Shown: one piece after another, positions 7,191-11,991 of the stretch
Layout of the letters: every line of letters starts with the position of its first letter
Position numbering within the stretch: position 1 is the stretch's first letter
From: Mesodorylaimus sp. YZB2_4
Taxonomy: Eukaryota; Nematoda; Enoplea; Dorylaimida; Dorylaimidae
DNA: 64,000 nucleotides
Direction: 5' to 3'
Assembly (NCBI GenBank): GCA_030248295.1
Contig: JASANH010001389.1
Span: 1-64,000 of the forward strand
Made by a program: the position numbers and the translations under genes
The notes under the pieces: generated by a model
Database searches by the model: none
Seen by the model: the letters and a program-made list of their open reading frames with translations, nothing else
Told to the model about the DNA's origin: nothing

Positions 7191-7284
7191 GTTGCCGAGG
7201 CAGTGTACCCGGTCCCAATTCAGACTGGTTTGTTCCCCGAGGAGGCCCCGCCAGCGGCGCCCGTCGATGCGACACCAGAGGCAC
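7191..7284 (+). repeat. diverged copy of exon 3 start of the 10.8-kb gene
   Basis: These 94 bases align without gaps, with only about four mismatches, to 11186-11279 inside exon 3 of the lysine-rich gene at 10774-11991. The similarity starts three bases inside the exon and ends within it, so the copy contains no intron. It directly follows the G-rich repeat. It is a fragment: the frame soon stops (ACTGTGAA), and no neighbouring exon is present. Confidence 0.85.
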
Positions 7285-7956
7285 TGTGAACTGGCCGCCC
7301 TGCCACGCGATAGAGGGGCGACCCAGGACGCGATACGAGAGCAACTGTTTACTAAGGCGGCTCCTCCCGACTGATTATGAGATGGCCATCAAAGGCACAC
7401 ACACAAACAGGCACAAGACAGCAGGTTAGTATCAATGAAAATCGAGAACCAGTCCAGGTTAGTCAATACCTCTACATTGCCCCTTCCCCAGATGAGCACA
7501 CACCTGGGTGCTCCAAACCACGGCAGCGAAAAGAAAAAGAAAAAAATCACGCAAAAGTATCACCAAATCACGAAAAAAAATCGCACCGCAATGCATGGGA
7601 CTGACCGGAGACTGACGATCACGTAAGGACTGACCGCTACCGAATCGAGAGAGTCGCTCATCAGGCGTGACATCCAGAGACCAGTCGGCGACAAGATACC
7701 ATACCAGACTGTCGTCGCCCCCGAACTGAGACCAGAACCGCTGACAGATGCTGAGGGCTTATACTGAGCATGGCGCCTTCCAGGCGTCACCAACGACACA
7801 GCGGCCAAGATTCGCACTACAGAGAAACAAAAGTTGCCTGCAAAGGAAAAATAATGCGTTAGTAAATCAAGAAAAAATCAAAACACAAAAAAACGTGATG
7901 CTAGCCGCCAAATGAACTAAGGTTTACTCCAAAGCCTCCGATACTGCATTGCGCGC
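7285..7956. other. no gene seen; likely 3' region of the integrase element
   Basis: Nothing recognisable on either strand. The A-rich stretch at 7530-7590 and the region up to 7956 lie downstream of the minus-strand integrase and may be its 3' untranslated or terminal sequence. I found no obvious direct repeat matching the other side of the element. Confidence 0.4.
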
Positions 7957-9558
7957 TTAAGACTCTGCGGACTGTTCCAACTCAGCCATCGCCACTAGAA
8001 TATTAGGTTTCCTCGACGAGTGTTTCTCCCTGTTGGCGAAATATTCCTCGACGTCATTCTGATAAACATACGCCTGTCGATTCCGATCATTGAAAAAATA
8101 TACCAAAACCCATGGTCCTCTTGTACGCGGTTTCGTGCCCACAGATTCCGATTCTGGCAAAACACGAGCAGGCCACCATGGCACATGTCTCATCTTCGCC
8201 CAAACTAACGAACCAGGAGGAAAGGCTGTCAACCCACCAGGTGTATAGATGCCTCCTTCCTCTACTACAACATCTACCCATTCGTCTTGATCGCTATCGC
8301 CAATCTCATGATCCATGATCGCATCCTGTCTTGATGTTGACGCAGAACCGCTGGGTGTGTGTTCTCGACCAGACACGTCTCCACGAAACAACTGCAAATG
8401 ATTTACATGGACCAACTTATCCGATTCAGGGTGAAGGAGAGGACGAATGCACGAGGTTACAGGCGAAGGCATTGCAAGAATCCTATAAGGCCCCAAGAAT
8501 CGATCCAGCAACTTTGTCGACAAGCCTCTGGGCGCTGCGTTTCTCTTGACCATCACCAATGATCCGGCCTTAAATGGTATTCGATGAACTGATTTGTTAT
8601 ACTGCTGGGCTTGAGCTTGTTGCGACTTTGCGATTTCTTCCGTTACAATCCTGTATGCATCCGTCAACTGCTGCTTCAACTGCGTCATGTAATCTATATG
8701 CAAATACTGTTGACTTCCGTCCAATCCAAAGACACGGTCAATAGGAAACGCCAAATCACGACCATACACGAGTTGAGCTGGCGAATACCCGGTCGACGAA
8801 TGTACGCTGGTGCGAAATGCGAACAAAGCAAAAGGAATGAAGACATCCCAGTCTTCTTGATGAGCACTCGTGTAGACGGCGATGCAGTCGATCAACACTT
8901 TGTCATATCGTTCCACTTGTCCGTCACATTGTGGATGATAGGCCGTAGTGGACAACTTGCGAATATTCAAAAATCGACATATGTTCTTCATGAGATCTGA
9001 CGTAAACTGTGAACCCAGGTCGGTCAAGATTGAACGCGGGCATCCGAACCGGCAAACCATGTGTTCAACAAAGATACGAGCTACCGTCCCGGCACGCATA
9101 TCTGCCATTGCAAAAGCCTCCGGCCATTTTGTGAACGCATCGATAAGGACAAGAATGTATGTATTTCCCAATCGTGATGTCTTCAGAGGACCGACTATGT
9201 CCATGCTGACACGTTCGAACGGAGCACCAACGGGTATGGAGACCAAAGGAGCTTTACCCCAGCAGTGAGGCTGCTTTCTACGAGCACAGATCAGACACGA
9301 CTTGCAGTATTGGTGTACATCTTTACGCATTGAAGGCCAATACACTCTGTCTTCCAGACCTGAGCAAGCACGATCTTCTCCCATGTGTCCAGCCAATGGA
9401 TCGTTGTGAAATGCTGCCAACACTTCCTGTTGCAAGCTAGCAGGCAGAGCAATGGCCGAACCTTCAATCACGCGACCACGTCGACGAAGTGCGAAACGAA
9501 ACCGCAAGACTGAACCAGGTCCATCTTGCAGAAAATACGATTCAGCCAACTTTTCCAT
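7957..9558 (-). CDS. Ty3-type integrase with C-terminal PWWP domain
   Basis: A single uninterrupted 533-residue frame from an ATG. Order: an HHCC zinc-binding domain (HNDPLAGHMG to YCKSCLICARRK, about 50-95); the integrase core with D in SMDIVGP, D in LTDLGSQF and E in GQVERYD, 35 residues between the last two, so the DD35E triad is intact; a GPY/F-like module (LDRFLGPYRILAM, then VHVNHLQLFR); an acidic linker; and from about residue 446 a PWWP domain (GSLVWAKMRHVPWWPARV, with the YFFN strand and helix after it). PWWP domains read methylated H3K36 and bind DNA. Here one is in the place chromodomains occupy in chromoviral integrases, so it probably guides insertion or chromatin binding. No reverse transcriptase or RNase H frame lies upstream. 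It may be a domesticated integrase, a Ginger-like DNA transposon, or a truncated retroelement. Confidence 0.9.
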   Translation of the reverse strand: MEKLAESYFLQDGPGSVLRFRFALRRRGRVIEGSAIALPASLQQEVLAAFHNDPLAGHMGEDRACSGLEDRVYWPSMRKDVHQYCKSCLICARRKQPHCWGKAPLVSIPVGAPFERVSMDIVGPLKTSRLGNTYILVLIDAFTKWPEAFAMADMRAGTVARIFVEHMVCRFGCPRSILTDLGSQFTSDLMKNICRFLNIRKLSTTAYHPQCDGQVERYDKVLIDCIAVYTSAHQEDWDVFIPFALFAFRTSVHSSTGYSPAQLVYGRDLAFPIDRVFGLDGSQQYLHIDYMTQLKQQLTDAYRIVTEEIAKSQQAQAQQYNKSVHRIPFKAGSLVMVKRNAAPRGLSTKLLDRFLGPYRILAMPSPVTSCIRPLLHPESDKLVHVNHLQLFRGDVSGREHTPSGSASTSRQDAIMDHEIGDSDQDEWVDVVVEEGGIYTPGGLTAFPPGSLVWAKMRHVPWWPARVLPESESVGTKPRTRGPWVLVYFFNDRNRQAYVYQNDVEEYFANREKHSSRKPNILVAMAELEQSAES

Positions 9559-9585
9559 ATCAATATCTCTCTCCTTGTCTTCTCC

Positions 9586-10161
9586 CTACAAAAACGTGAT
9601 GATACGATTTGTAACAACGTCAGAACGTTGCTCTTTCTTCAAAAACGCGTCATCCAAGGAGGCAAGTTCGTCGTCAGATGCTCTAGCTTTTAGTCCTAGC
9701 TTCTTTGGCATTAGAATCGTTTTATCTTCTCATTTTCACACCTCCTGGTCCTCACATTGTGACCCGTGCCACTGTTGTCCGTGCCTCTGAAACAGCGAAG
9801 TGAGAGATTTGAACCTGAAGAGGCCTGTACGTACTGGGATTCAAACAAACAACTGATCCGCAAATTGATGCAAAGTCGCAAAATCAAATGTGCGCACACT
9901 GACAGTCTGTGCAAGGCAACACATGTGATGAGGGGTTCCTGGAAGTACGTGAAACTTGTCTAGGGGATATGAGATGTCACCCAGAAACCGATTTCACCAC
10001 ATACGAATTAGTGCTTACTTATGCTGCGCTGGTACGGCAGGAAGCGACGACGTGGTCCAACGTAACGGTGAGCCATAGCGGACGACAGAGGAAGATCTTT
10101 CACTCGTCGCTCGAACAAAACCAACTCCAACTCAGACGGCCAAAACATGGCCCTTATATAC
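9586..10161 (-). promoter_or_regulatory. possible promoter and leader exons of the integrase gene
   Basis: On the minus strand a TATATAAG box (10154-10161) is followed 78 bases on by an ATG (10076), a 19-residue basic frame (MAHRYVGPRRRFLPYQRSI) and a good donor (GTAAGC at 10013-10018). Nearer the integrase, a 41-residue frame starts at 9711 (MPKKLGLKARASDDELASLD) and stops at TAG 9586-9588. It is in the same frame as the integrase ATG, nine codons further on. These could be a leader exon plus an upstream ORF, or one protein joined by splicing or stop readthrough. All of this is inference; only the motifs are seen. The region lacks gag or reverse-transcriptase coding sequence. Confidence 0.3.
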
Positions 10162-10773
10162 GAATCCTAATACCTGGTCTATGACATTTGCATGTCACCT
10201 AAAATAAAAAAACCTGCCCGAAAGGAACGAGGTCGTCTGCGAAAGCCTAAGGCCAAAAGGCAAACAAAACCTCATGTGAATAGTCAACTGATAACAAGTA
10301 TCTACGCTAATACATATCTCCGTCATACACTGCTGCAGGGCGAACCAATAACGGCGCGTGGTTCAAATTCAAAAAGAACTATACCACACACATACAGACC
10401 GTTCGGTATGAGAACATCATTAGGCACTGGTTTTGGCTGAAGTCATCCAGGATTAACAACCGATTGCATGGTGCTTTGGCGAGTGGTTGTGGAACTTCCT
10501 TTTGTCCTTCATTTGGATTATTCGAGCTCGGCGTGGCGCCTCAGATAGTTAATACGCACAGATATACCATGGCGCTTTTTACAGTGCGTGGTCAGTGTGA
10601 CCAGATAGTCCGCATTTCTTGTGGCTCGTACCTTGCCGCGATCATCGAAGCAGTGTAAAGCATTTCCAAGAGCCAGCATTCGGCTGCAGCCGTGCTTATT
10701 GTTTGCGGCTTTGGGTGGCGAGCGGTCGCTTGGCTGGTCGGCTGCACAAACTGTGGTGACAGGCTGCGAGAAC

Positions 10774-11991
10774 ATGAGTGCCCCGAAGAAACAGGCGGGC
10801 GGAAAGAAAGGCGCGAAGAAGCCAGCGAAGAAGCCGTCTTCGTTCAACGAGTTCTGGAACAAGCTGCTGCGGAAGGACAGTAAGTACGAATATGAACTGC
10901 GAGGACAAAACTGTCATGGCCTTGTTTTCAGAAAAGCGTGGCGGAACTGGCGACGTTCCAACGGAAAAGACGGTACGGCGGGCGGCCGGGAGTATTGCCA
11001 AACTGCTACATCTGAAGAAGAAAGAGCGACAGCAGGTGACGCAAGTGTTGGCGGCCGAGGTGCAGCAAGGAGTCCTCGAGAAGAAGCACAGGCGCCCGCA
11101 TCCACGACCACCACCTACGGCTCTGGTAAGTCCTTCCGAATCGGCCGTCCTTGCCCAACGTGACCCTTGCTTGGTCCTTTAGCCAGTTGCCGAGGCAGTG
11201 TACCCGGTCCCGATTCAGACTGGTTTGTTCCCCGAGGAGGCCCCGCCAGCGGCACCCGTCGATGCGGCACCAGAGGCACCGGCCGAAGAAGAACCGGCTG
11301 TCGTCGCTCTCGATCATCCCATTCCGAGCACGGGCATGTCAGATCTGGAACTCCAGCGGAAGTCGTTCCTGGAAAAGTCGGGCGGAGGATCAGCAAAGGG
11401 CGGAGGATCGGCGAAGGGCGGAGCGAACGTGAGCGGCAAGAGTGCGTCATGGTCGCACGAGGGTAAGCACACTTTCGATTTCTTCTGACCGTCCCAGCTC
11501 ACAGTGCTTTTCTGTTTAGCGTACGGGTCGCAGCCGGAATCGATTACGTTGGACGACTCGGCCGTCAAGGAGATCGCGGGCCATATGCTGACGAGCATGT
11601 TGCGGGACGTTCTGGTTAGTGCCAGCCGAGTCTTCTCGCCATCTCATGCTCACTCATTTCCTTGTTTTAGATGGAAGCGTCGGTGCGCCAGAAGGCGGCG
11701 AGTTCGAAGAAGCCCGAGGATATGGATCCTGAAGAACTGGTCGAGTTGCGTCTGAAGGACCCGCAGCAGTTTGACGTGTTGGTCAAAGAGAATACGGTCG
11801 TGTCGTACGCGCTGTCGAAGCCGAGGGACGACGATCAGAAGACGGCCAAGAAGATCAAGGAGAAGAGGCAGGGAAAGCGGAAGCCCTTGCATTTCGACGA
11901 TAAGGTGGAAGTGTCAAAGGCGCCCGTCGGCCGGGACTTCGATCCGAAAGAGAAGAAGAGCACGACCAACAGCTCCCTGAAACGACGCTGA
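10774..11991 (+). CDS. lysine-rich protein of unknown function, 331 residues
   Basis: Five exons join in frame: 10774-10879, 10932-11125, 11183-11462, 11520-11614 and 11671-11991. All introns are GT-AG and 50-60 bases long. The N-terminus is strongly basic (MSAPKKQAGGKKGAKKPAKK), followed by a helical segment (KERQQVTQVLAAEVQQGVLE), a Pro/Ala/Glu-rich middle, a Gly/Ser/Lys linker and a charged C-terminal half ending TNSSLKRR. There is no signal peptide or membrane segment. The basic ends suggest a nuclear or nucleic-acid-associated protein, but no family is recognised. Codon use is GC-rich, like the SMARCB1 and arginine kinase genes, which suggests good expression. Part of exon 3 is duplicated at 7191-7284. 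Splice structure is secure; function is unknown. Confidence 0.85.

Follow-up and report, generated by a model that had tools for sequence, protein, structure and literature searches.

Can a Ty3-type integrase carry a chromatin reader of its own, and what would such a reader do for the element that encodes it? This question is raised by a 64,000-nucleotide stretch of the nematode Mesodorylaimus sp. YZB2_4 (contig JASANH010001389.1, positions 1 to 64,000; referred to as the window here), in which an open frame of 533 residues (7957 to 9558, minus strand, as for all features of this element) joins an integrase to a C-terminal PWWP domain. We found that this is a cis fusion of a Ty3-type integrase with a PWWP fold in one polyprotein frame. 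We read the locus as the remnant of a recently mobile Ty3-type long terminal repeat (LTR) element whose integrase uses its own PWWP domain to tether itself to chromatin in cis, most likely at histone H3 di- or trimethylated on lysine 36 (H3K36me2/3), and we give this reading a probability of about 0.62.

A Pfam scan of the frame identified the HHCC zinc-binding domain at residues 39 to 96 (Integrase_H2C2, PF17921, E value of 2.2e-19; 9271 to 9444) and the rve catalytic core at residues 112 to 209 (PF00665, 5.8e-13; 8932 to 9225). Residues H51, H58, C88, and C91 of the former and D120, D180, and E216 of the DD35E core, the last just past the rve match (8911 to 8913), are present and invariant across ten aligned family members. 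The GPY/F-like C-terminal module (approximately residues 331 to 391, with GPYRI at 356 to 360; 8386 to 8568) was recognized from weak matches, below the cutoff, to two models of the integrase C terminus, p58_C and SH3_Tf2-1 (PF22938/PF24626), and from an alignment with the Ty3 integrase of structure 7q5b that runs to residue 391. The integrase part has its best match among solved structures in this Ty3-G polyprotein (7q5b, 1.7e-25), followed by the integrase of prototype foamy virus (1.1e-19).

Beyond a fast-evolving linker predicted to be disordered (residues 396 to 440, 8239 to 8373; predicted local distance difference test [pLDDT] score below 50 over residues 395 to 444), the frame ends in the PWWP domain (7960 to 8223), whose literal PWWP motif occupies residues 460 to 463. 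The match to PF00855 (residues 449 to 519) has an E value of 4.7e-15 and 56.3 bits, against a curated cutoff of 25.6. For residues ∼446 to 533, AlphaFold2 predicts a five-strand barrel followed by two helices (pLDDT of 86, predicted template modeling score of 0.77). The PWWP domains of MSH6, LEDGF/PSIP1, and NSD3 are the nearest solved structures by sequence, and all 50 matches listed in a fold search with the predicted model are PWWP-containing PDB entries, with the proviso that other barrel families may lie outside these 50. An earlier note on this DNA, made from the letters alone, had described the same succession of modules and named fold prediction as a check on the PWWP barrel; both the modules (the GPY/F-like one weakly) and the barrel are borne out, with the correction that the frame forms the 3′ portion of a gag-pol polyprotein. 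No chromodomain match was found in the frame at E values of up to 1, and since the chromodomain is the defining feature of chromoviruses, the element is of Ty3 type but no chromovirus.

The window copy is the last 2.4 kb of a 5′-truncated Ty3-type LTR retrotransposon (7285 to 9698), 91% identical in DNA sequence (BLASTN) to copies L021, L023, and L024 of the same genome (labels with L and C denote copies and contigs, i.e., loci in the window's own genome, G000). Its homology to the other copies ends at 9698, so that the 5′ part is missing, and what is left comprises the end of the RNase H-integrase spacer, the integrase, the PWWP domain, a purine-rich tract that, as read from the sequence, resembles a polypurine tract (7477 to 7490), and, adjoining this tract, the 3′ LTR alone (7285 to 7476, TGT...ACA; 84 to 86% identical to the 5′ LTRs of the three copies). 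The open frame is the end of the gag-pol polyprotein, and its stop lies 11 residues earlier than in the open copies. Given that the frame opens at a methionine internal to the polyprotein (ATG at 9558), that an in-frame TAG lies upstream (9586 to 9588) that is not in the 2,153-residue frames of L021 and L024, and that the 5′ part is missing, the 533-residue protein is the tail of a truncated polyprotein and not a whole gene. Adjoining the 3′ LTR is a 94-bp stretch (7191 to 7284) that is 97% identical to 11186 to 11279, ∼4 kb away and just past an open reading frame (ORF) on the plus strand (10621 to 11163); this repeat may reflect a segmental duplication or be left over from the rearrangement by which the element was truncated.

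The genome assembly (145 Mb, 1,067 contigs) contains at least 98 stretches that match the 533-residue frame, and five other copies do so at 93% over the whole or nearly the whole of it. In L021 and L024, a single frame of 2,153 residues runs from gag to PWWP, while the other copies are broken to varying degrees. The L024 frame contains, in order, a zinc knuckle, a protease (744 to 834; 26.7 bits, slightly below the cutoff of 28.2), reverse transcriptase (RT; 1147 to 1307), RNase H (1370 to 1503), H2C2 (1647 to 1704), rve (1720 to 1817), and PWWP, and thereby the Ty3/Gypsy pol order of protease, RT, RNase H, and integrase. The LTRs measure ∼160 to 240 bp and are 97.8 to 99.5% identical within the pairs of L021, L023, and L024. 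A perfect 4-bp target-site duplication was present in 9 of the 12 copies checked, the exceptions being L031, which begins at a contig end, and L027 and L040, whose ends could not be set; for this count, the BLAST ends of copies were moved by eye by up to 3 bases to the TGT...ACA termini. The identity of the LTR pairs and the target-site duplications mark these as canonical, recent integrations. Some copies have lost or displaced the tail, with a deletion spanning the PWWP domain in L027 and a PWWP domain in another frame in L038. The subfamilies at 70 to 76% identity have an extra Arg/Ser-rich frame of ∼305 to 357 residues between pol and the 3′ LTR (L031:6840-7829, L032:8611-9657, and L038:8488-9558; also, read in the orientation of the element, L029, L033, and L035), for which no Pfam family exceeded the cutoff in the three scanned.

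The fusion extends beyond this one family. A genome-wide scan with PF00855 gives 149 matches (148 above the cutoff), and at no fewer than 81 of the 149 places an integrase match starts 150 to 2,500 bases upstream on the same strand (at least 65 by the lists of the best 150 H2C2 and rve sites alone), compared to 2 in a control that looked on the other strand or downstream. This count used the best 150 H2C2 sites, the best 150 rve sites, and the 80 of the 98 frame matches that begin before residue 200; the remaining PWWP matches will include host PWWP genes. Viewed from the integrase side, 49 H2C2 sites among the best 150 have a PWWP match within 2 kb downstream, 48 of them at a distance of 922 to 1,071 bp (a control on the wrong side or the wrong strand gave 2), as do 40 rve sites among the best 150. 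Four further integrase-PWWP frames (on C402, C322, C79, and C166) were read directly. In addition, six diverged sequences (L039 and L041 to L045, of which L041 and L042 are close kin) are 28 to 37% identical to the window frame and contain H2C2, rve, and PWWP in one frame, all over the curated cutoffs. By the same 2-kb measure, the 80 chromodomain matches fall downstream of no H2C2 site among the best 150 and of four rve sites among the best 150 (C268:117353-118266, C682:24516-25429, C851:15884-16797, and C1059:470-1381), showing that chromodomain- and PWWP-bearing integrases coexist in one genome. Several contigs (among them C78, C128, C174, C192, and C538) have rve matches ∼700 bases from their start, near base 717, in frames of up to 2,944 residues in some cases; these seem to be assembly breaks at the termini of an element that is abundant in the genome.

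According to the earlier note, the fusion would fall if the PWWP segment belonged to a separate transcript. At the DNA level it does not: the intact copies have one ORF, and both a separate transcript and chance adjacency were ruled out by the uninterrupted gag-to-PWWP frame in L021 and L024 and by the tight H2C2-PWWP spacing. GIN1/Ginger-type integrase genes and DNA transposons have a Ty3-like integrase ancestry with no RT alongside, and the window copy, an integrase without RT beside it, looks like them at first sight. Its other copies, in contrast, have LTRs, RT, and RNase H, and a Ginger-like DNA transposon was rejected for the window copy because of the RT and LTRs in these copies.

The tail has been retained for use. 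Between the window copy and L024, the ratio of nonsynonymous to synonymous substitution rates (dN/dS) is 0.16 for the integrase, 0.82 for the linker, and 0.14 for the PWWP domain (0.15, 1.12, and 0.14, respectively, with L021); between L024 and L031 it is 0.11 for the PWWP domain, with dS near saturation. Only 6 of 17 changes in the PWWP domain are nonsynonymous (P = 0.0003, taking 0.77 of sites as nonsynonymous), and its substitution pattern differs from that of the linker (P = 0.04) and not from that of the integrase (P = 1.0). The PWWP domain is thus kept under purifying selection, for use by the mobile lineage. That the window frame has instead become a host gene, an integrase-derived chromatin factor, as the earlier note had also considered, is highly improbable. 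The frame is still open at 9% DNA divergence, and the integrase changes assigned to the branch of this copy alone are 17 synonymous versus 6 nonsynonymous, as in a domesticated gene they might be; this constraint is, however, explained by the mobile lineage from which the copy came. A GIN1-like gene would be a single locus without LTR or copies, whereas this frame has a 3′ LTR attached and belongs to a multicopy, recently mobile family with LTRs and target-site duplications, and the copy itself is a truncated remnant with an internal-methionine ATG and an in-frame upstream TAG.

What the domain may bind can be gauged from its methyl-lysine cage. LEDGF/PSIP1 reads methylated H3K36 via M15, Y18, W21, and F44; the affinity for an isolated H3K36me3 peptide is only 17 mM, contacts with nucleosomal DNA being needed as well, and the single change M15A removes the enrichment on H3K36me3 genes (PMC3663649). 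We aligned these four positions and read them by eye. The window copy has M/V/W/F, i.e., three of the four LEDGF residues, and the equivalents of M15, W21, and F44 are also kept in L024. Since M15A alone abolishes the enrichment of LEDGF, the retained methionine suggests a cage that is used. Other copies show M/L/W/F (L029), L/I/W/F (L031), V/F/W/F (L041, aromatic at all three aromatic positions), V/Y/W/L (L042), V/H/W/F (L043), M/H/L/F (L039), and V/F/A/F (L045), while L044 has Q/W/F at the last three positions and a shifted first one. Judged from these residues, some families are likely to read methyl-lysine, while for others this is doubtful, and the divergence of the cages suggests a diversification of marks or binding modes among sister families.

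Several points weigh against a tether to H3K36me2/3. Reading this mark is not a property of every PWWP domain. At the position of Y18, the window copy has V and the sister subfamilies have V, L, or I. With the key tryptophan lost in L039 (L) and L045 (A) and the F44 equivalent in L042, not all members of the group can be methyl-lysine readers. Along the branch leading to the window copy alone, the PWWP domain has 2 synonymous and 3 nonsynonymous changes, too few to show constraint there. The flanks gave few coding matches: 163 ORFs of at least 60 residues were collected around 10 copies, and the 111 from 9 copies that were scanned with Pfam (leaving out L027 and, by hand, ORFs of up to 75 residues) matched seven families, namely, serpin (two ORFs), three G protein-coupled receptor (GPCR) families in one ORF, and collagen, ubiquitin, and RT (one each), a count that, set against neither gene annotation nor random sites, weighs neither for nor against gene-body enrichment. 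The GPCR match is at L034, where a 318-residue frame with 7TM_GPCR_Srt/Srx matches is open at 9031 to 9984 on the minus strand, near the PWWP element; the ubiquitin match is at L021.

These cage losses would be expected if the PWWP domain were a generic nucleosome- or DNA-binding module that stabilizes the integrase and raises the efficiency of integration without mark specificity or choice of genes. The absence of the Y18 wall in the window family and the weight of DNA contacts over the feeble peptide affinity in LEDGF (PMC3663649) speak for such a role, which we nevertheless regard as fairly unlikely, given that the M15, W21, and F44 equivalents persist in the window copy and L024 (L031 has L for M15). 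The domain could also serve another step, be it the binding of cDNA, assembly of the integrase, nuclear import, or placement in weakly silenced regions with no bias toward gene bodies. The Tf1 chromodomain reportedly promotes cDNA binding. The vestigial chromodomain of Ty3 touches TFIIIB and target DNA (PMC8632968). Still, the predicted fold and the retained cage positions fit chromatin reading best, and we consider a role in another step improbable.

Under the cis-tether reading, the multimeric intasome formed after reverse transcription would carry several PWWP tails on flexible linkers. These tails would dock on nucleosomes via nucleosomal DNA and, where the cage permits, also grip methylated H3 tails, most likely H3K36me2/3, so that strand transfer would take place in marked chromatin. 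Steering into H3K36-methylated gene bodies, as proposed in the earlier note, is plausible on these grounds. More tentatively, and with somewhat less than even confidence, one animal lineage may hold a radiation of Ty3 elements with their own PWWP domains, whose cages were altered family by family so that related elements recognize different chromatin states and divide the genome among themselves.

As to the origin of the fusion, PF00855 was found in none of the 95 homologues of the 533-residue frame and in none of the 120 listed of 325 homologues of the L024 integrase-PWWP part (precomputed Pfam annotation), and a local profile search found PWWP in none of 215 homologues (best E value, 0.23). 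A PWWP-only search with 111 residues of the L034 frame against 5.8 billion proteins gave 135 candidates and none with an E value of ≤1e-3; distant relatives could be missed by this search, which combines the strict E value of a huge set, a requirement for shared words, and a length window of ∼600 to 1,900 residues. Among predicted viral folds, there was no match at an E value of ≤0.001. On present data, then, the fusion seems confined to the host's lineage, as no PWWP occurs among the searched homologues. Searching with PWWP tail and integrase core together, as suggested in the earlier note, turned up many copies in this genome and no PWWP-bearing homologue among the proteins searched. Some of these homologues have other fusions: a zf-CW domain (PF07496) occurs with rve in P0020, and SCAN domains occur with rve in several proteins (P0033, P0049, and others), some from fish. 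We built an integrase tree from the ten PWWP integrases and 60 homologues (of the 215, 176 had enough coverage, and the redundancy filter stopped at 60), a sample without the tail-less integrases of the same genome. In the quick tree made without constraint, two label changes are required to account for the PWWP integrases; a single PWWP clade is not rejected (approximately unbiased P value of 0.74), and the tree in which the PWWP families stay together has the better likelihood, by 13.6 log units. The domain may have been captured once and then spread, or it may have been captured repeatedly.

Two further observations concern other parts of the genome. The window has an unbroken 305-residue Tc1/mariner-type transposase frame at 81 to 998 on the plus strand (HTH_Tnp_Tc3_2 and DDE_3 in Pfam). 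Matches to COX1 with many TGA codons occur at C73:253316-254668 and 14 other places, several on nuclear-size contigs, where they are probably mitochondrial insertions or misassembly; a 470-residue COX1 stretch is open except for 10 TGA codons, a pattern that would fit an animal-type mitochondrial code.

How retroelements choose their landing sites is a long-standing question, to which lentiviruses respond by borrowing a host PWWP protein and chromoviruses by carrying chromodomains. Gao and colleagues reportedly found in 2008 that chromodomains direct integration to heterochromatin. For the C-terminal integrase chromodomain of chromoviruses, a role in target choice has been proposed or shown (PMC3605345, PMC12440569, PMC8632968). 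Chromoviruses, including Ty3 with its vestigial chromodomain, resemble the window element in their Ty3-type pol order and in a small barrel reader at the integrase C terminus but differ in the reader, which is a PWWP domain here. The nearest precedent in the texts covered is Gypsy-10_Ec32 of Ectocarpus, a Gypsy polyprotein with a nonchromodomain reader of the same broad superfamily, a C-terminal Tudor domain, which its authors describe as, to their knowledge, the first transposable element reported with one; it differs in this domain and in its host, a brown alga, with a homologue in Tribonema, and the word PWWP is absent from the main text of that paper (PMC12477816). In the open-licence PubMed Central literature (Repbase and subscription papers being outside this scope), the portions covered describe no integrase carrying PWWP (including PMC12477816, PMC11244446, PMC5906684, PMC6877644, PMC3663649, PMC8632968, PMC6338049, PMC12440569, PMC6156844, and PMC5082951), so that the earlier note's suspicion of an undescribed family is not contradicted there.

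The host PWWP proteins MSH6, NSD2/3, the HDGF family, BRPF1, and DNMT3 have the same domain fold and core motif but are cellular and lack an integrase. A built-in PWWP domain would, if the cis-tether reading is true, offer an independent solution found in nature, one directed at marked and probably transcribed chromatin, and since fuller, partial, and lost cages occur among sister families of one genome, mapping their insertions would directly test how reader residues relate to insertion pattern. The closest functional parallel is lentiviral integrase with LEDGF/p75, whose PWWP domain, among the nearest solved ones by sequence, likewise links an integrase to chromatin. There, the PWWP domain resides in a separate host protein that is engaged through its integrase-binding domain, whereas in the window element it is covalently joined to the integrase; the element would thus tether itself in cis as LEDGF/p75 tethers lentiviruses in trans, a natural counterpart of that system.
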